Shown: piece after piece, positions 7,755 through 20,350 of the stretch
How the letters are laid out: each line of letters opens with the position of its first letter
Numbering within the stretch: the first letter of the stretch is position 1
Program-made: the position numbers and the translations under genes
Notes under the pieces: model-generated
What the model was told of the DNA's origin: nothing
Databases searched by the model: none
What the model saw: the letters and a program-made list of their open reading frames with translations, nothing else
Source: a virus
IMG/VR virus record: IMGVR_UViG_3300009079_001742
Coordinates: 1 to 20,350 of that record
Direction: 5' to 3' (one strand)
DNA length: 20,350 nt

Positions 7755-8321
7755 ATGTTACGTATTTCCTTGACAGGGCATACGAAAGGTATTGGTAAAG
7801 CACTTTATGAAACCCTTTCTACGTCTCATTACTTAGACGGCTACAGTAGATCTAACGGATATGATATATCTACAGAGGAAGGAAGGTTAGAAATACTTAA
7901 ACAAGCTTATAACTCAGACGTCTTTATTAATAACGCATACAGCTCTAACTCCCAGACAGAGCTTTTTACTTTGTTATTTAAAAACTGGATGTACGATGAA
8001 AGTAAAACTATAGTAAATATATCTAGTCAATCTAAATACCCCGGTCAAAGCGTCAATTGGTCCGGCTATTCAGCCTACAAAGCCTCCCTTAACCATCAAT
8101 CTTACTTATGTGCCTTTAAAACAGACCGCAAGTGTAGAATTATTACTATAAATCCCGGTTTAGTTAAAACCGGTATGACCTTAGACGCTCAACAAATTAA
8201 CAAAGGTATGCTAACACCAGAAGAAGTAGCTTGGTCAGTAAAGTACGCTATAGAACTACCCCAACATATAGAAATAGGTGAAATGAGCCTGTGGTACAAA
8301 TCTTCAGATCAATCTAGATAA
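7755..8321 (+). CDS. Short-chain dehydrogenase/reductase (SDR)
   Basis: A 188-residue Rossmann-fold oxidoreductase, shorter than the usual ~250 of classical SDRs. Visible motifs in order: nucleotide-binding TGHTKGIG (residues 7-14), N-N-A (59-61), the catalytic serine in NISSQS (90-91), and Y105-S-A-Y-K109, the catalytic Tyr/Lys pair, then INPGLVKTGM, the usual P-G-x-V-x-T. All catalytic positions are therefore intact. The loops are shortened, with the cofactor-specifying region at residues ~28-37 (LDGYSRSNGYDIS); the polar D/S content there leaves NAD versus NADP open. Substrate is unknown. The stop overlaps the next start by one base (TAATG), tying it to the radical SAM gene, so they probably act on the same pathway. 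Confidence 0.85.
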   Translation: MLRISLTGHTKGIGKALYETLSTSHYLDGYSRSNGYDISTEEGRLEILKQAYNSDVFINNAYSSNSQTELFTLLFKNWMYDESKTIVNISSQSKYPGQSVNWSGYSAYKASLNHQSYLCAFKTDRKCRIITINPGLVKTGMTLDAQQINKGMLTPEEVAWSVKYAIELPQHIEIGEMSLWYKSSDQSR

Positions 8322-9175
8322 TGGAAGTTAACAAATTTAAATTTAGATGGGAAGATGTAATAGTCGATAGTATACATAATCCGCTTTTACCAGGTTTACG
8401 TAACTTAGAGATTAATCCTACTGAGTTATGTAATCGAAAATGTAGCTTCTGTCCTAGAGTTAATCCTGAATTATACCCTAATCAGAATTTACATATGGAT
8501 GTTAATACAGCTAGAACGCTCTCAAAACAGTTACAAAATGCAAACTACACTGGGGAAGTAGGTTTAGTTGGATTTGGGGAACCGGTACTAGCAAAAGGTA
8601 TATTAGAGTTATTAGCTGAATTTACTCCTTACTTTTATACTTATACTATGACAAATGGAGATGTATTTCTACGGGGTAAACATAAGGTACAGGATTTTAT
8701 AGATGTAGGTATCAAACTACTTATAGTTAACTGTTATGATGATGCGGAGCATTTAGAGGTACTAACTAAATTTTTTGAACCTTACGGAGATTCTATAAAA
8801 ATTCAACTCAGACATTTGGAAGATACAGGAGAAACTACTATCTTTAAAGAGTACGGCCTTACTAACAGAGGGGGAATATTTAATCAGGTAGAACCTCAAG
8901 AAAGAGAATGTTTTATTCCTTTTTACAAAGCTATGATAGATTGGAATGGTAACGTACTTTTATGTAGTAAAGATTGGCAACGTAACGAGAAAGGCCTTGG
9001 CAATATACTAGACACACCATTCCCAGAATTATGGACTAGCAAAAGATATATGACAGTACGAAAGAAATTATTAGATAAGGATAGAAAATCTATCTCAGCC
9101 TGTAAACACTGCGACGTGAATGGACTTAGAGTCGGTAAAGATAGTGTTGAAGTATTAAAAAAATTCTTAAGATAA
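8321..9175 (+). CDS. Radical SAM protein with SPASM/twitch-like C-terminal cluster domain
   Basis: A 284-residue enzyme. The radical SAM cluster motif C-x3-C-x2-C is at C37-NRK-C41-SF-C44, directly after the first strand (NLEINPTELCNRKC). GFGEP at 84-88 is the G-G-E-P-type SAM-binding motif. The C-terminal part has C197, then AMIDWNGNVLLC (C215), then AC-x2-C (C261, C264), spaced as in SPASM/twitch domains that bind one auxiliary 4Fe-4S cluster. LGNILDTPFPELWTS between them is the usual linker helix. Such enzymes generate a 5'-deoxyadenosyl radical to modify peptides, sugars or other small molecules; the substrate cannot be read here. It is not QueE, which has a different cysteine spacing. 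It overlaps the SDR gene by one base. Confidence 0.85.
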   Translation: MEVNKFKFRWEDVIVDSIHNPLLPGLRNLEINPTELCNRKCSFCPRVNPELYPNQNLHMDVNTARTLSKQLQNANYTGEVGLVGFGEPVLAKGILELLAEFTPYFYTYTMTNGDVFLRGKHKVQDFIDVGIKLLIVNCYDDAEHLEVLTKFFEPYGDSIKIQLRHLEDTGETTIFKEYGLTNRGGIFNQVEPQERECFIPFYKAMIDWNGNVLLCSKDWQRNEKGLGNILDTPFPELWTSKRYMTVRKKLLDKDRKSISACKHCDVNGLRVGKDSVEVLKKFLR

Positions 9176-13771: not shown

Positions 13772-14180
13772 AGGAGTTATAGCAGGAAATTTCGACGTAT
13801 TACATCCAGGTTACATTGCGATGTTTAAAGAAATGAGAGAGAATTGCGATTGTCTAATCGTTCTTTTACATACAGATCCATCCATAGAAAGGCCTCATAA
13901 ACTTAAACCTATACTTTCACCAGATGAAAGAAAAGAAATGTTAGAAAGCATAAGGCATATAGATGACGTAATACGTTATACTTACGAGGAACAGTTATAT
14001 GATTTGCTTAAGATGGGAGAATTTGATTTAAGATTTCTAGGTGATGACTACGTTAATAAGCCTTTCACAGGAGATGATTTAAAAATACCTATCTATTATT
14101 TAAATAGAGATCACGGTTGGAGCACAACAAAGTTTAAAAAATTAATATCAGAAAGTTATGAAAAAAGCAATAATAGTTAG
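13764..14180 (+). CDS. Cytidylyltransferase-like nucleotidyltransferase (first of a pair)
   Basis: A 138-residue Rossmann-like nucleotidyltransferase, close to the length of TagD-type glycerol-3-phosphate cytidylyltransferases. The nucleotide-binding site is GNFDVLHPGY (H14-P-G-Y17); in the canonical H-x-G-H motif the second residue would be His, here Tyr. Further motifs: VLLHTDPSIERPHKLKPIL, LSPDERKEML with the substrate/loop Arg, FLGDDYVNKP, and a final RDHGWSTTKFKKLI in place of the R-x-x-x-I-S-S-T motif. Such enzymes couple CTP or ATP to a phosphorylated small alcohol or sugar. The substrate is unknown. Start ATG lies inside the preceding gene's last codons, and its end overlaps the second nucleotidyltransferase by 23 bases. 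Confidence 0.78.
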   Translation: MIKGVIAGNFDVLHPGYIAMFKEMRENCDCLIVLLHTDPSIERPHKLKPILSPDERKEMLESIRHIDDVIRYTYEEQLYDLLKMGEFDLRFLGDDYVNKPFTGDDLKIPIYYLNRDHGWSTTKFKKLISESYEKSNNS

Positions 14181-14577
14181 CGGGTACTTTAACCCTTTAC
14201 ATAAAGGACATTTAGAATTATTCGAAAAAGCAAAAGAAGTAGGAGACGCTCTCATAGTGATTGTTAATAACGACAAACAAAGAGAAATGAAAGGTTCTTC
14301 TTTCTTTATGGACGAAGCAGAAAGGGTTGAAATAATAAGAGCTCTTACTGTAGTAGATATGGCATGGGTATCTATAGATGAGGATAGTACTCAAAACGAA
14401 ACTCTAAAGCTTATGGTTGATAAATTTCACGAAACTTACAAACTAGCTTTTGCTAATGGAGGAGATCAGAATAATAATACTATTCCTGAAGCAGATATCT
14501 GTAGACAATATAATATTGAACTTATAGACGGATTAGGAGATAAAATACAGTCTTCTTCTTGGCTATTAAAAAAATAA
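14158..14577 (+). CDS. Second nucleotidyltransferase (cytidylyltransferase-like superfamily)
   Basis: A 139-residue protein of the same superfamily but not a close copy of its neighbour. It has an intact signature GYFNPLHKGHLELF with H15-K-G-H18, then VIVNNDKQREMKG, FMDEAERVEIIRALTVVD, FANGGDQ (the G-G-D-x turn near the nucleotide), IPEADICRQYNI and IQSSSWLLKK, which corresponds to the I-S-S-T/S motif. The complete motifs suggest an active enzyme transferring a nucleotidyl group from CTP or ATP to a phosphorylated substrate, as in heptose-phosphate or glycerol-phosphate activation. The overlapping arrangement with the first copy implies coupled expression and possibly a joint pathway. Substrate not identifiable. 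Confidence 0.78.
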   Translation: MKKAIIVSGYFNPLHKGHLELFEKAKEVGDALIVIVNNDKQREMKGSSFFMDEAERVEIIRALTVVDMAWVSIDEDSTQNETLKLMVDKFHETYKLAFANGGDQNNNTIPEADICRQYNIELIDGLGDKIQSSSWLLKK

Positions 14578-14581
14578 ATCA

Positions 14582-14609
14582 TATATTAAGATATAATAAA
14601 AGGTTATAA
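14582..14609 (+). promoter_or_regulatory. Leader element before the helicase gene
   Basis: The 32-base gap holds TATATTAAGATATAAT followed by ATAAAAGGTTATA (14596-14608), identical over 13 bases to the element before the polymerase gene. It ends one base before the helicase ATG, leaving AGG six bases from the start. This is the same leader module seen before other gene blocks; whether it is a promoter or only a translation leader is not decided by sequence. Confidence 0.42.
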
Positions 14610-15950
14610 ATGACATTAAAGAGTTTACAGCAGTACGGAAAGGGGTTTCAGTTAAAGGTTTTAGGATCACTACTTACAGATAAAAGTTTTTTACTAAACG
14701 TAAGAGATGTTCTACACGATCATTACTTCGATGCAGATTCACATAAATGGATCATTAATCAAATAAAAGAGTATTTCGATAAGTATCATACTAACATTAC
14801 TATGGATGTTCTTAAAGTAGAACTTCAAAAGTTAGAGAATGAGGTACTTCAAGTAGCACTTAAAGAGGAGCTAAGAAATTCTTACGAAGCATCAGTTGAT
14901 GATTTAGAGTATGTGCAAGAGGAGTTTCAAACCTTTTGTAAGAATCAAGAAATGAAGAACGCTATACTTAGTTCTGCTGACCTTCTTAAAGATCATGACT
15001 TTGACGGAATCAGAAACATGATTGAGAAGGCTATGAAAGCTGGTATGGATAAAAATATTGGACATGAATATAATAAAGATGTTGAAACTAGGTATAGAAC
15101 TGACTACCGTCCTACTATTCCTAGTCCTTGGCCTATACTTAACGATGGTATTCAAGGAGGATTTGGACCTGGCGATTTGGGTATTGTTTTTGGTAATCCA
15201 GGAGGTGGGAAAAGCTGGTGTATGGTTGCTATTGCTGCTCATGCTGTCAGTCTTGGCTATAAAGTTAATTATTATACCCTCGAACTCGGAGAGGACTATG
15301 TGGGTAAACGGTTTGATTGCTACTTTACAGGATACTCTATTGATGAGGTTAATAAACACCGTAAAGAAGTTCAAACTTATGTCGATAGTCTCAAAGGTAA
15401 GCTCATCGTTAAAGAATATCCACCGAAAGGGGCAACGGTAAATACTATTAAGTCGCATATTCAGAAATGTATGGATATGGATCACAAGCCTGACTTAGTT
15501 ATTATTGACTATGTTGATTATCTGAGGGCACCCTCTAAAGGTAAATACTCAGAAAGAAAAGATGAGATCGATGATGTATTTATAGCTACTAAAGGCTTAG
15601 CAAAAGACCTAAAGATACCTATTCTTACACCATCTCAGGTAAATAGAATGGGAGCTAAAGACAGTGTAATAGAAGGCGATAAAGCAGCTGGGAGTTACGA
15701 TAAAATGATGGTAGCAGATATATGTTTATCTCTATCTCGTCAGAAAGAAGATAAAGTGCTAGGCACCGGGAGAGTACACGTTATGAAAAATAGATATGGT
15801 CAAGACGGTATGACTTACAACGTAAAGATGGATACTAATAATGGTCATATATCTTTCGAAGGAAAAGCATCAGCTGAAGATCTTATACCAGAAGAGGAAG
15901 GTAAACCTAAGTTTACTATATCTCGAGAGGCAATGTCAAAATTATTATAA
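14610..15950 (+). CDS. Replicative DNA helicase, DnaB/T4 gp41-like
   Basis: A 446-residue hexameric-helicase family member. The N-terminal ~150 residues are the helical primase-interaction and hexamer-contact domain (LKVLGSLLTDKSFLLNV, DADSHKWIINQI). The RecA-like motor follows: Walker A GNPGGGKSW (G195-S202, K201), YYTLELGE with the catalytic Glu, Walker B DLVIIDYVDYLR (D300), and LTPSQVNR with the sensor Gln343. A basic segment (GTGRVHVMKNRYGQDG) near residue 390 is the region of the arginine finger and DNA loops. It unwinds the lagging-strand template ahead of the phage polymerase. No primase gene lies in this window. It stands behind its own leader, and a strong hairpin terminator follows 42 bases after the stop. 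Confidence 0.9.
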   Translation: MTLKSLQQYGKGFQLKVLGSLLTDKSFLLNVRDVLHDHYFDADSHKWIINQIKEYFDKYHTNITMDVLKVELQKLENEVLQVALKEELRNSYEASVDDLEYVQEEFQTFCKNQEMKNAILSSADLLKDHDFDGIRNMIEKAMKAGMDKNIGHEYNKDVETRYRTDYRPTIPSPWPILNDGIQGGFGPGDLGIVFGNPGGGKSWCMVAIAAHAVSLGYKVNYYTLELGEDYVGKRFDCYFTGYSIDEVNKHRKEVQTYVDSLKGKLIVKEYPPKGATVNTIKSHIQKCMDMDHKPDLVIIDYVDYLRAPSKGKYSERKDEIDDVFIATKGLAKDLKIPILTPSQVNRMGAKDSVIEGDKAAGSYDKMMVADICLSLSRQKEDKVLGTGRVHVMKNRYGQDGMTYNVKMDTNNGHISFEGKASAEDLIPEEEGKPKFTISREAMSKLL

Positions 15951-15991
15951 TTTTTTTTGCTAAATGTGGAATATATATTCTATTTATAACC

Positions 15992-16025
15992 ACGGCCTCG
16001 GAAACTTCTTTTCGAGGTTGTTTTT
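15992..16025 (+). terminator. Intrinsic terminator after the helicase gene
   Basis: A 13-bp stem, ACGGCCTCGGAAA paired with TTTTCGAGGTTGT (15992-16004 / 16009-16021), with three G-T pairs and a CTTC tetraloop, followed by a T run (16021-16025) and GTCT. The stem core CCTCG/CGAGG is the most stable structure in an otherwise AT-rich 106-base gap (15951-16056). It separates the replication block from the ribonucleotide reductase block. A T8 tract just after the helicase stop (15952-15959) is not preceded by a stem. Confidence 0.8.
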
Positions 16026-16056
16026 GTCTAACACTTTAAGTAATATATAAAGATAT

Positions 16057-17034
16057 ATGAGTTTACTAGAAGAAAGAGTTGTGTATAAACCCTTCGAATA
16101 CCCTAAGGCATACGATTACTGGTTAAAACAGCAACAAGCACATTGGCTACATACAGAAGTACCAATGGCGCAAGACGTTACTGACTGGAAATCAAATATG
16201 AAACCCCATGAAAAAAATGTAGTAGGAGGAATCTTAAAAGGATTTGCTCAAACAGAAACAGTAGTTAATGATTACTGGTCTACATTAGTAACTAAATGGT
16301 TCAGGAAACCAGAAGTTATTATGATGGGTACTACTTTAGGTTCTAGTGAAACGATACATGCAGAGGCTTATTCTTTACTCAATGAGCAATTAGGATTAGA
16401 CAACTTTGCAGAGTTTATGGAGGATGAAGCAACTATGGCTAAAATAGAAAACCTAATGGACGTTAGAGATGGACATAACGGTGAACCTAACTGGCATGAT
16501 AGGTCTAAATCACTAGCTATATTCTCAGCATTTACAGAAGGTGTAAATCTATTTAGTTCTTTCGCAGTTTTATTATCGTTTAAAATGAGAAATAAACTCA
16601 AAGGAGTAGGGCAGATAGTAGAGTGGTCTGTAAGAGACGAAAGTCTTCACTCTGAAGCAGGATGTTGGTTATTTAGAACCCTTATGAAAGAACATCCGGA
16701 ATTTAAGACTCCAGAACTTATAGCTGATATAAATGAAGCAGCAGCAACTGCATTACAGTTAGAGTTTAATTTTATCGATAAGATATTTGAAATGGGTGAT
16801 CTTGAAAACTTAACTAAAGACGAATTAAAAAACTTTATTCGTCATAGAGTAAATACAAAAATGGCAGATTTAGGATTAAGTCCTATTATTCCTGCAGAAG
16901 ATATCGATAAAGGTGCATTAAAAACTATGAAATGGTTTGATGCTGTTATCGCTGGAAAACAACAAACAGATTTCTTTGCTAGTAGAGTTACAAACTATAG
17001 TAAAGGTCACTTAGATTGGTCTAACGCATTTTAA
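16057..17034 (+). CDS. nrdB: Ribonucleotide reductase class I, beta (radical) subunit
   Basis: A 325-residue R2-type ferritin-fold protein. Metal ligands by eye alignment with E. coli NrdB: E67 (QTETVV, at the position of Asp84), E98 and H101 (SSETIHAEAY), E161 (FTEGVN), E195 and H198 (RDESLH). Y105 sits at the radical tyrosine position, so a tyrosyl radical is possible. The first ligand is Glu instead of Asp, a substitution also known from class Ic enzymes; those lack the tyrosine, so this protein is mixed in character. A C-terminal FFASRVTNYSKGHLDWSNAF tail ends without the usual Glu-rich run. With NrdA it makes deoxynucleoside diphosphates for phage replication. It begins a block after the terminator and precedes nrdA by 10 bases. 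Confidence 0.93.
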   Translation: MSLLEERVVYKPFEYPKAYDYWLKQQQAHWLHTEVPMAQDVTDWKSNMKPHEKNVVGGILKGFAQTETVVNDYWSTLVTKWFRKPEVIMMGTTLGSSETIHAEAYSLLNEQLGLDNFAEFMEDEATMAKIENLMDVRDGHNGEPNWHDRSKSLAIFSAFTEGVNLFSSFAVLLSFKMRNKLKGVGQIVEWSVRDESLHSEAGCWLFRTLMKEHPEFKTPELIADINEAAATALQLEFNFIDKIFEMGDLENLTKDELKNFIRHRVNTKMADLGLSPIIPAEDIDKGALKTMKWFDAVIAGKQQTDFFASRVTNYSKGHLDWSNAF

Positions 17035-17044
17035 TATAAAGGTT

Positions 17045-18760
17045 ATGTCACACATAGTAGATACCAGTAGCTGGGAAGCTGGAAAGGATTACCCAGAATG
17101 GATGAATGAAGTTTCTATTGCAACTATCTCAAAAGGATATTTAATGCCTGATGAAACTCCAAAGTTAGCATATAAAAGAGTAGCTAATAGAATAGCTGAA
17201 AGATTAGATCGACCTGATTTAGCGAATAAATTTTTTCGTTACATGTGGAAAGGTTGGTTGAACTTAGCCTCCCCCGTCCTGTCTAATACAGGAACCGATA
17301 GAGGATTGCCCATCTCTTGTTTTGGGATAGATACCCCAGACTCTATAAGAGGAATCGGCCTTACTAACGCAGAGTTAATGAGGCTGACTTCCCTCGGTGG
17401 TGGAGTTGGTATAGGATTATCTAAAGTTAGAGGTAGAGGTAATAAAATAGGTAAAGATGATATGGGACAGTCAGAAGGTATAGTACCTTGGGCTAAGATA
17501 TACGACTCAACTATCATTGCTACTAATCAAGGTGCAGTTAGAAGAGGAGCAGCATCAGTTAATCTAGATATCAATCACCCAGATATTCACGAATTTTTAG
17601 AAATTAGACGTCCTAAAGGAGACCCTAATAGACAGTGTCTAAACCTACATCAATGTGTTGTAGTGGATGATAGCTTTATGCAAAAACTAGAGCATAGAGA
17701 CGCTGAGGCAATGGAATTATGGGTTAAAATACTTAAGTCTAGAGTGGAGACTGGAGAGCCTTATATTATGTATAAGGATACAGTTAATAATGCTAATCCA
17801 CCTGCTTATAAAAAGAATAACCTGGATGTTAGTATGACTAATATCTGTTCAGAAATCACTTTACATACAGATGAAGAGCATTCTTTCATTTGCTGTTTGT
17901 CATCTGTTAATTTAACAAAATGGCATGAATGGAAAAACACGGACCTAGTAGAAACCGCAATATATTTTTTAGATGGAGTGTTAGAAGAGTTCTTAGCAAA
18001 AACTTCTGGAAAAGATTCGTTAATAAGAGCGTATAGATCTGCTAAAAAAGGTAGGGCAATTGGTTTAGGAGTATTAGGATGGCATACATTCTTACAAAAC
18101 GAAAGAATACCCTTCGCATCCATTGCTGCTACTTCTCTTACACATCAGATATTTTCTCAATTAAAAAATCAAGCAGATGCTGCTTCAAGAAAGTTAGCAG
18201 AAGAGTACGGAGAACCTCTATGGTGTAAAGGAACAGGTATGAGAAATACTCATGTTCTAGCAATTGCACCTACAGTTTCTAATAGTACTATAGCAGGAGG
18301 TGTATCTGCCGGTATTGAACCAGTACCTGCTAACATTTACACATTTAATTCAGCAAAAGGTACATTTATACGTAAAAATTCAGCATTAGAATCTTATTTA
18401 GAAGCAAAAGGAGCTAACACTGAAGAAGTATGGGATCAAATTATGAAAGATAGAGGCTCAATCGCTAACTTACCGGAAGATGTAATGCCAGCTGATGATA
18501 AGCCTATATTCTTAACTTTTGCAGAAATTAACCAATTAGAATTAGTTAAACAAGCAGGAGCTCGACAGAAGTACATAGATCAAACGCAATCATTAAACTT
18601 AGCCTTTGACCCAACAGATAGTCCTAAATTTATTAATGAAGTTCACCAAACAGCTTGGAGAGAAGGAGTAAAAACACTATACTACCTACGTACAGACTCA
18701 GTAATTAACGGAGACATTGGAAGTAGAACAGATACTGACTGTTTAAGTTGTGATGGTTAA
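17045..18760 (+). CDS. nrdA: Ribonucleotide reductase class I, alpha (catalytic) subunit without ATP-cone
   Basis: A 571-residue catalytic subunit, well short of the ~760 of E. coli NrdA. The 10-stranded barrel motifs are present: SPVLSNTGTDRGLPISCFG (C92, first redox cysteine), TSLGGGVGIGLS, N266-I-C268-S-E270 (thiyl cysteine with its Asn and Glu), C283 in ICCLSSVNL (second redox cysteine), APTVSNSTIAGG, and TLYY (Y546, Y547) for radical transfer. The C-terminal C566-L-S-C569 pair can be re-reduced by thioredoxin. The N-terminus lacks an ATP-cone domain, so dATP feedback inhibition at an activity site is not expected. This would favour a high dNTP supply during infection. It runs directly behind nrdB; thioredoxin is encoded two genes later. 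Confidence 0.94.
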   Translation: MSHIVDTSSWEAGKDYPEWMNEVSIATISKGYLMPDETPKLAYKRVANRIAERLDRPDLANKFFRYMWKGWLNLASPVLSNTGTDRGLPISCFGIDTPDSIRGIGLTNAELMRLTSLGGGVGIGLSKVRGRGNKIGKDDMGQSEGIVPWAKIYDSTIIATNQGAVRRGAASVNLDINHPDIHEFLEIRRPKGDPNRQCLNLHQCVVVDDSFMQKLEHRDAEAMELWVKILKSRVETGEPYIMYKDTVNNANPPAYKKNNLDVSMTNICSEITLHTDEEHSFICCLSSVNLTKWHEWKNTDLVETAIYFLDGVLEEFLAKTSGKDSLIRAYRSAKKGRAIGLGVLGWHTFLQNERIPFASIAATSLTHQIFSQLKNQADAASRKLAEEYGEPLWCKGTGMRNTHVLAIAPTVSNSTIAGGVSAGIEPVPANIYTFNSAKGTFIRKNSALESYLEAKGANTEEVWDQIMKDRGSIANLPEDVMPADDKPIFLTFAEINQLELVKQAGARQKYIDQTQSLNLAFDPTDSPKFINEVHQTAWREGVKTLYYLRTDSVINGDIGSRTDTDCLSCDG

Positions 18761-18772
18761 CTATTTATATAC

Positions 18773-19309
18773 ATGAGCAAACGAGTTTTTATTAACGGTG
18801 TAACTATAGGTAGGGATGTTTCTCTAGTTGATATTTACCATACTTCAATTACTGGTAGTAACCTCCTGGCTAGTTCAGTTTCTAAAGATACTTTGCTTTC
18901 CGGCAGTTCGTTTATAGTGGATGACGATGTTGTTGAATTTATTGTAGTCTGTAGCGATGGAGATGTATGTCAAGACGAAACTGGTAGTATAAGTTTAACT
19001 ACTTATAATCCTAACATAAGGTACTTTAACGTAGGTTCAACAGATACTGAAGCTACAGTAGAAATTACCTACCCAGTAGTAGATGGACCTACTACAGGAA
19101 GTCTTACACAAATTGTAGACTTTAAAACCTATTCTTCATTTATTATTGAAGCAGATACAGTTCCAGCTTACCCTAGATTAACTGGTTTTAGTGGATGGTA
19201 TGACGCACCAACTTCAGGTAGTTTAATTTCTACTAATAATCCGCTAACCATAACACAAACTACATTTACTGGGTCTAGAGGAGACGAATTTTATGCTTAT
19301 TTTAGTTGA
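18773..19309 (+). CDS. Unknown protein with a Listeria-Bacteroides-repeat-like C-terminal module
   Basis: A 178-residue, beta-rich, Ser/Thr/Val-rich protein. The N-terminal ~100 residues (KRVFINGVTIGRDVSLVDIY, SFIVDDDVVEFIVVCS) look like an independent small beta domain with no family I recognise. The C-terminus has PRLTGFSGWYDAPTSGSLIS, then a T-rich strand and GDEFYAYF; this G-F-x-G-W-Y then ...G-D-x-x-Y-A-x-F pattern is the signature of the short Listeria-Bacteroides (InlB B-type) repeat seen in surface proteins. There is no signal peptide. It is placed between nrdA and thioredoxin, unexpected for a structural-type protein; a virion decoration or adhesion role is inference. Confidence 0.7.
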   Translation: MSKRVFINGVTIGRDVSLVDIYHTSITGSNLLASSVSKDTLLSGSSFIVDDDVVEFIVVCSDGDVCQDETGSISLTTYNPNIRYFNVGSTDTEATVEITYPVVDGPTTGSLTQIVDFKTYSSFIIEADTVPAYPRLTGFSGWYDAPTSGSLISTNNPLTITQTTFTGSRGDEFYAYFS

Positions 19310-19318
19310 TAAATTGCT

Positions 19319-19351
19319 AATTTATTCTTATATTTATATAAAATAAGTTAT
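19319..19351 (+). promoter_or_regulatory. Leader element before the small basic protein and thioredoxin
   Basis: The 42-base gap has TTTATTCTTATATTT (19321-19335) and AAGTTATATG at the start codon, the third copy of the element found at 5917 and 9193, with one extra T. It is preceded by a perfect AT-only stem, ATAAATT-GCT-AATTTAT (19309-19325), that begins at the previous stop. This may end the RNR transcript or regulate the next one. Confidence 0.4.
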
Positions 19352-19528
19352 ATGTCAAAAATAAGTTCTAAAACACGCTACAATCAGCTCAAAGAATGGT
19401 TACCAACACTTAAATCCTATAGAGATAAGCACATGAAAAAAGATGATGCTTCTAATGGTAAAAAATTTTCTAAAGCAGATTATTATAAACAACAAAACAA
19501 TCGTTATGGCGGCAAAAAAGCTAATTAA
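19352..19528 (+). CDS. Tiny basic hypothetical protein
   Basis: A 58-residue lysine-rich protein starting MSKISSKTRYNQLKEWLPTL. It is too small to be obvious but supported by its own leader element, a full-length open frame and a start codon in the same context as neighbouring genes. Its sequence is half charged: a helix (NQLKEWLPTLKSYRDKHM) and a basic polar tail (KADYYKQQNNRYGGKKAN). There are no cysteines and no membrane segment. Its end overlaps the thioredoxin start by 23 bases. It may bind nucleic acid given its charge, but I recognise no family. Confidence 0.6.
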   Translation: MSKISSKTRYNQLKEWLPTLKSYRDKHMKKDDASNGKKFSKADYYKQQNNRYGGKKAN

Positions 19529-19772
19529 ATTTTATGCTACATGGTGTGGACCATGTAAAATCTACGGAAAGACTTGGGATAAAGTTAAACCTACATATCA
19601 AGATCAAGTAGACTTCGAAGATATAGATATAGATAAAGATACTACTGGTTTAGCAGCTAAGTATAAAATATCCTCTGTACCTACTACTGTGCTAATTAAA
19701 GAAGACGGTTCTACTATTACAAAAACAGGACGTCTAGGAAAAACAGAATTAACCGAACTAATACTATCATAA
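19506..19772 (+). CDS. Thioredoxin/glutaredoxin-like protein
   Basis: An 88-residue thioredoxin-fold protein, start at ATG 19506 (an upstream ATG at 19443 in this frame would add 21 residues with no thioredoxin character and would overlap the small upstream gene). Active site is W-C-G-P-C (ATWCGPCKIYGKTW), a canonical thioredoxin site, followed by VDFEDIDIDKD, the strand before helix 2, and the cis-proline loop SSVPTTVLI. The final helix is KTELTELILS. Length is just under the ~105 of typical thioredoxins, as in phage reductants. It would reduce the C-terminal cysteine pair of NrdA, encoded two genes upstream. The stop is directly adjacent to the next ATG. Confidence 0.85.
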   Translation: MAAKKLIKFYATWCGPCKIYGKTWDKVKPTYQDQVDFEDIDIDKDTTGLAAKYKISSVPTTVLIKEDGSTITKTGRLGKTELTELILS

Positions 19773-20069
19773 ATGTTACGAAATCCAGATTCAGTACCCG
19801 CAAGTGATACTCTAATACAAGATCCAGTTATGGAACCATACTTTATTACTCGTTCTCAAACCGGTGGCTTCACTGTGTATGAAAGAGTTATTAAAGGAGA
19901 AAATGATACAGAATATATTAAAACTATTAGCTATCCTTCTAACTTTGGAAATGCACTTAAAACAGTAGCTAGAGAGATACTCAATGTTAGTGGTAAAGAA
20001 TACGACTTAAAAAGTTATGTAAAACGTTGGGAAGATGTAAAAAATTCCTTACTTTCTATAGTAGAATAG
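19773..20069 (+). CDS. Small hypothetical phage protein
   Basis: A 98-residue soluble protein starting directly at the thioredoxin stop (TAA ATG), so the two are translationally coupled. It shows a strand-turn-strand part (EPYFITRSQTGGFTVYERVI, then EYIKTISYPSNFGNALKTVA) and a closing helical segment (SYVKRWEDVKNSLLSIV). It resembles small conserved phage proteins of unknown function; I recognise no catalytic motif. No membrane segment. Its 47-base downstream gap precedes queC and shows no clear hairpin. Confidence 0.7.
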   Translation: MLRNPDSVPASDTLIQDPVMEPYFITRSQTGGFTVYERVIKGENDTEYIKTISYPSNFGNALKTVAREILNVSGKEYDLKSYVKRWEDVKNSLLSIVE

Positions 20070-20116
20070 CGTTCGCCTATACGTTTTTAATACCTGGCAA
20101 ATTTAAATAAATAGAA

Positions 20117-20350
20117 ATGGCAAAAAATGTTGTAATTAGTCTTTCAGGAGGGATGGACTCCTCAACCTTACTACTTAGATGTTTATCTGAGTATGACAAT
20201 GTAACTGCAATATCTTTTGATTACGGTCAAAAGCATAAAGTAGAGCTTGAAAGAGCACAATCGTTAGTTAACTACTTAAATGATGAAGTTCACTTTAGAA
20301 ATGGTGATCAAATCAAATACCAAGTTATTAAACTTGACGGATTAGTTAAC
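20117..20350 (+). CDS. queC: 7-cyano-7-deazaguanine (preQ0) synthase, 5' part only
   Basis: The first 78 codons of a QueC-like enzyme, cut by the window edge. The PP-loop LSGGMDSSTLL binds ATP, and AISFDYGQKHKVELERA is the characteristic QueC second motif. QueC converts 7-carboxy-7-deazaguanine to preQ0 with ammonia and ATP. In phages, preQ0-pathway genes usually feed 7-deazaguanine modification of DNA that blocks host restriction. The zinc-binding cysteines of QueC are C-terminal and lie beyond the window, so completeness is unknown. It starts 47 bases behind the previous gene, with an A-rich leader and no Shine-Dalgarno. Neighbouring queD, queE and folE-type genes are not seen here. Confidence 0.9.
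   Translation, partial: MAKNVVISLSGGMDSSTLLLRCLSEYDNVTAISFDYGQKHKVELERAQSLVNYLNDEVHFRNGDQIKYQVIKLDGLVN

Follow-up and report, generated by a model that had tools for sequence, protein, structure and literature searches.

A phage queC truncated at a contig end and a predicted formyl-dPreQ1-type DNA modification pathway in its Immutovirus-related lineage

Gene order at the locus

The window, i.e., the whole stretch of DNA analyzed here (20,350 b), is the entire virus record IMGVR_UViG_3300009079_001742 in IMG/VR, and the genes 3′ of queC are therefore read from relatives. Its last part carries a series of synteny markers that leads up to queC, into which the contig end cuts (Table 1).

Table 1. 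Positions of queC and of the synteny markers in the window
Feature	Position	Strand	Basis
DnaB-type replicative helicase; synteny marker, included in the tree	14610..15950	+	75% to immuto_2-6A dnaB
Ribonucleotide reductase small subunit, synteny marker	16057..17034	+	81% to immuto_2-6A nrdB
Ribonucleotide reductase large subunit, synteny marker	17045..18760	+	Pfam, 1.3e-100; 83% to immuto_2-6A nrdA
Thioredoxin-like gene, 5′ of queC, synteny marker	19506..19772	+	40% to immuto_2-6A thioredoxin gene in the equivalent place
Small conserved ORF directly 5′ of queC, synteny group marker	19773..20069	+	48% to immuto_2-6A homologue
queC 5′ part (7-cyano-7-deazaguanine synthase), 78 codons, truncated by the contig end	20117..20350	+	Pfam QueC; homology
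PP-loop ATP-binding motif SGGMDS of QueC, residues 10 to 15	20144..20161	+	Sequence reading

The sequence-only reading had placed a queC gene at the window edge, and the position that it gave, 20117-20350, proved exact. The ORF opens with ATG at 20117 and runs stop-free to the last base, encoding 78 aa. Residues 5 to 56 match the Pfam family QueC (PF06508; E = 3e-14; score, 53.5 bits; cut-off, 22), and competing PP-loop families have much lower Pfam scores on the same ORF. It also matches PHROG 1550, “QueC-like” (3.2e-18), and NCBIfam TIGR00364 (2.1e-16), the latter with a score under the family's full-length cut-off because the gene is truncated. The fragment is 64% identical to the queC of immuto_2-6A (97% coverage) and 96% identical to that of its best IMG/VR relative (L003), whose 269-aa ORF contains SGGMDS, VPNRN, and YPDCR. 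SGGMDS is kept in every full-length QueC relative, and the VPxRN and YPDCR motifs of the C-terminal part are found in nearly all of them. At the sequence level, 20117-20350 is thus confirmed as a genuine phage queC truncated by the contig end.

In bacterial QueC, C-terminal cysteines bind zinc. The C-terminal Cys4 zinc motif is absent from all listed full-length QueC proteins of the lineage (including L002:18607-19488) and present in the QueC of phages VogelGryff and phiSM.

Scanned for exact patterns from the last 230 bases, IMG/VR contained only diverged relatives and no near-identical virus, and a megablast of window positions 14001-20350 gave zero matches to named phages. The nearest named phage is Flavobacterium phage vB_FspM_immuto_2-6A (NC_055915, Immutovirus), here called immuto_2-6A, which has polA, ssb, recA, exonuclease, dnaB, nrdB, nrdA, thioredoxin, and queC in an order identical to that of the window. 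By these comparisons, the window is a contig end from a large Immutovirus-related phage. Within ≤19 kb 3′ of its queC, immuto_2-6A carries queD, queE, folE, a gene annotated as DpdA, a formyltransferase-domain gene, a thymidylate kinase gene, and queF, with Pfam support for QueC, PTPS, GTP cyclohydrolase, QueF, and Formyl_trans_N. Two contigs, L056 and L060, have ribonucleotide reductase genes of another type in the usual place (26 to 34% identity to those of the window), which suggests replacement.

Relatives in IMG/VR carry a 7-deazaguanine module

We fetched 80 loci from IMG/VR, most of which sort into two groups. Group I shares with the window the thioredoxin gene and the small ORF directly 5′ of queC and has the order queD-queE-PRT-folE-PRA-PH-dpdA-formyltransferase-tmk-queF 3′ of it. 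In group II, a diverged dpdA lies ∼1 kb 5′ of queC, and the immuto-type queF is missing. The small ORF, present in 44 of the 68 relatives that have both thioredoxin and queC, marks the synteny group of the window.

Group I comprises 40 contigs with the upstream order of the window, 10 of which extend >14 kb 3′ of queC. All 10 carry dpdA, the PurN-like formyltransferase gene, and queF, although L044/L048 and L058/L059 look like one virus twice, which leaves ∼8 independent viruses among the ten. The long syntenic relatives examined in detail also have folE, queD, and queE, and the group I contigs without dpdA all end <14 kb from queC. The four genes that the sequence-only reading had proposed as a check, folE, queD, queE, and a DpdA-like gene, are consequently all present in syntenic relatives, beyond the point at which the window ends.

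In a tree of DnaB, NrdB, and NrdA, the window falls among full-module contigs of group I. The closest relatives by QueC (L003 and L004) both belong to group I, and L004 has the complete dpdA-formyltransferase-queF module. One contig, L006, combines the group I order upstream of queC with the group II order downstream (queD, queE, and folE rearranged), and dpdA was not found within the 13.9 kb 3′ of its queC. Recombination or chimeric assembly may explain L006; its gene order indicates that the downstream module can differ and calls for caution in transferring the module to the window.

An exact-pattern scan revealed a further, diverged group (L118, L119, L125, and L126) in which queC, dpdA, queF, formyltransferase, tmk, and folE form a head-to-tail operon whose genes overlap or are closely spaced. 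The dpdA, queF, and formyltransferase of this group share only 33 to 38% identity with those of immuto_2-6A. The formyltransferase thus accompanies dpdA and queF in two different gene orders.

DpdA, QueF, and formyltransferase of the relatives

The DpdA of the relatives has no Pfam match, and the Pfam TGT model found no match in immuto_2-6A, whereas 14/14 control genomes matched. An AlphaFold2 model of the protein (pLDDT, 91) consists of alternating strands and helices. Alignment of its profile to phage DpdA1 with hhalign gave a weak match (probability, 31%; E = 5e-4), while an unrelated control profile reached E = 0.58 and was unaligned. In this weak pairing, D53 and D208 stand opposite D63 and D206, i.e., at the two catalytic Asp positions, with IILDNS opposite FLDSGA and SLDTSN opposite SCDSSS. 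The DpdA of immuto_2-6A is 43 to 44% identical to the DpdA-like protein of Campylobacter phages CP220 and CPt10 (44% for CP220). Searching solved structures with the DpdA sequence yielded no convincing match; with the profile as query, the DNA-guanine transglycosylase 7ui4 appeared only at E = 1.4, a value too weak to use.

QueF of the relatives is intact in 9/9 sequences both at its NADPH motif, ESKSIKLYLNS, and at the catalytic Cys/Asp stretch, LRSNCRVT(N/D)QPDWGD, and the protein aligns nearly end to end with the solved two-domain QueF 3bp1 (2.4e-44), which favors a reductase over QueF-L. The predicted product of this QueF should be preQ1.

The formyltransferase of the relatives matches Formyl_trans_N in Pfam (2.4e-13) and is related to GAR transformylases. 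NGHPG and H-x-V...GVDEG, the sites at which GAR transformylase has its Asn, His, and Asp, are intact in all 10 sequences, and the gene lies directly 3′ of dpdA in each of the 12 records in which it was found. At 175 to 190 aa, the protein is short for PurN, and the PurN match spans the catalytic half only. By its domain, its Asn-His-Asp triad, and its adjacency to dpdA, it is a putative formyltransferase of the DpdN type.

Other genes in the window

Compared with the window, immuto_2-6A is without SDR, radical SAM, glycosyltransferase-like, dioxygenase, and nucleotidyltransferase genes at the matching spots. The sequence-only reading had combined two ideas, namely, that queC marks 7-deazaguanine DNA modification and that these genes (including two nucleotidyltransferases) might contribute to a base hypermodification or glycan pathway. 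The former gains support from the long syntenic relatives with a DpdA-family transglycosylase and queF; the latter is not borne out by the relatives that span the spots. Among these, the SDR occurs in 1/26 (a weak match, located elsewhere), the radical SAM gene in 0/26, the glycosyltransferase-like gene in 1/31, and the dioxygenase in 1/36 (33% identity). The two nucleotidyltransferases are present in 15/40 and 23/40 relatives, and both are absent from L031 and immuto_2-6A, which carry the full deazaguanine module. For the names “glycosyltransferase” and “dioxygenase,” the window ORFs gave no Pfam or PHROG match. Judged by this distribution, the SDR, radical SAM, glycosyltransferase-like, dioxygenase, and nucleotidyltransferase genes are variable cargo. 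The SDR and radical SAM/SPASM genes form an inserted pair (window positions 7755-9175) with a conserved ORF on one side and ssb on the other.

A predicted pathway and its alternatives

We propose, with a probability of roughly three in four, that the window queC is part of a phage formyl-dPreQ1-type DNA modification pathway whose remaining genes lie past the contig end. FolE would convert GTP to dihydroneopterin triphosphate, from which QueD would form carboxytetrahydropterin and QueE 7-carboxy-7-deazaguanine; QueC would then complete preQ0 synthesis with ATP and ammonia. QueF would reduce preQ0 to preQ1 in an NADPH-dependent step, the DpdA-family transglycosylase would put the 7-deaza base in the place of guanine in the phage DNA, and the PurN-like, DpdN-type formyltransferase would place a formyl on the aminomethyl group, yielding formyl-dPreQ1. 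The replacing DNA base is thus probably a 7-deazaguanine with a formylated aminomethyl group, and the modified bases would block host restriction enzymes. What we observe is the queC fragment and, in syntenic relatives, the other genes with their motifs intact; that the window virus shares these genes, that exchange precedes formylation, which base results, and that it protects the DNA are inferred.

Formyl-dPreQ1 and the formyltransferase DpdN, in a pathway with DpdN and DpdA3, were reportedly described by Cui et al. in 2023 (NAR). The same product and formyltransferase step are predicted here from the genes of the relatives of the window, and the DNA-guanine modification system is accordingly a further case of an already known type. 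In passages of PMC12783734 and PMC11515303, Cui et al. 2023 is cited for further phage 7-deazaguanine modification. Among QueF-bearing phages, dPreQ1 was measured in Streptococcus phage Dp-1 (PMC6884629), and mass spectrometry found 15% dPreQ1 in Vibrio phage 6E351A (PMC12028318). The relatives of the window share preQ0 synthesis genes, DpdA, and QueF with the dPreQ1 pathway of these two phages but add a formyltransferase gene beside dpdA. In CP220 and CPt10, dADG replaces 100% of dG (PMC8306585); these phages resemble immuto_2-6A in their DpdA-like protein, but their end product is an amide and not the formyl-dPreQ1 predicted here, and a search for a formyltransferase homologue in them gave no match.

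The deazaguanine pathway might instead stop at dPreQ1 or dPreQ0, with the formyltransferase near dpdA serving purine/folate metabolism. The immuto_2-6A formyltransferase carries a GAR transformylase annotation, PurN-like genes occur in cyanophages, and the downstream module of the window virus lies outside the window. We nevertheless consider this role unlikely, given the short length of the protein, the limited extent of its PurN similarity, its place directly 3′ of dpdA in the 12 records, and the position of its gene between queF and tmk in the second, diverged operon. A group II type of queC, with the diverged dpdA ∼1 kb upstream, no immuto-type queF, and dPreQ0 or dADG as the DNA base, would fit the way in which L006 couples the upstream order of the window with the group II downstream order. 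The window, however, has thioredoxin and the small ORF rather than dpdA 5′ of queC, and its closest relatives by QueC lie in its own group, one of them with the full module, making this type very unlikely. Similarly small is the chance that a CP220-related DpdA brings about near-total guanine replacement and that preQ1 bears a further group besides or instead of formyl, a base undescribed so far; such a group would be added by conserved genes of the queC-queD interval, e.g., a NodU/TobZ-type carbamoyltransferase.

Two other readings leave the module aside, and we give them hardly any credence. Lone phage queC genes with an unclear role are known (PMC6884629), and only the N-terminal 78 aa are visible here, so the gene could be a lone PP-loop gene or a supplier for host tRNA queuosine, with no DNA modification; yet queC stands alone in no long group I relative, and dpdA is in all long syntenic relatives. 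The dioxygenase, radical SAM, SDR, glycosyltransferase-like, and nucleotidyltransferase genes do lie within 13 kb on one strand, as a base-hypermodification pathway including queC might, but four of them are missing at the matching spots in nearly all queC-bearing relatives, the nucleotidyltransferases come and go, and the dioxygenase and glycosyltransferase-like ORFs belong to no Pfam or PHROG family that we could match. The formyl-dPreQ1-type pathway remains our preferred reading.

With this pathway, a widespread group of uncultured aquatic phages joins those predicted to have 7-deazaguanine DNA, and the two gene orders provide linkage evidence that places a PurN-like formyltransferase in the DpdA/QueF pathway. 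7-Deazaguanines in DNA block restriction (PMC6884629). Such DNA resists many restriction enzymes, and it may be miscounted in metagenome libraries.

The queC-queD interval

The genes between queC and queD differ among the relatives. A NodU/TobZ-type carbamoyltransferase gene lies there in most group I contigs (L102:5733-7391 in relative G002; Pfam, 1e-61) and is absent from the interval in immuto_2-6A, L031, L040, L046, and L060; NodU/TobZ-like carbamoyltransferase genes also occur in many cyanophages. In the closest relative (L105:6676-9019), we noted by eye sulfotransferase-like, SPASM-like cysteine-containing, and APS-kinase-like ORFs 3′ of queC. The interval looks like a variable cargo site. 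Directly 3′ of queE, many group I contigs conserve a 4Fe-4S ferredoxin gene (L102:10984-11238), whose product might supply electrons to QueE, a radical SAM enzyme.
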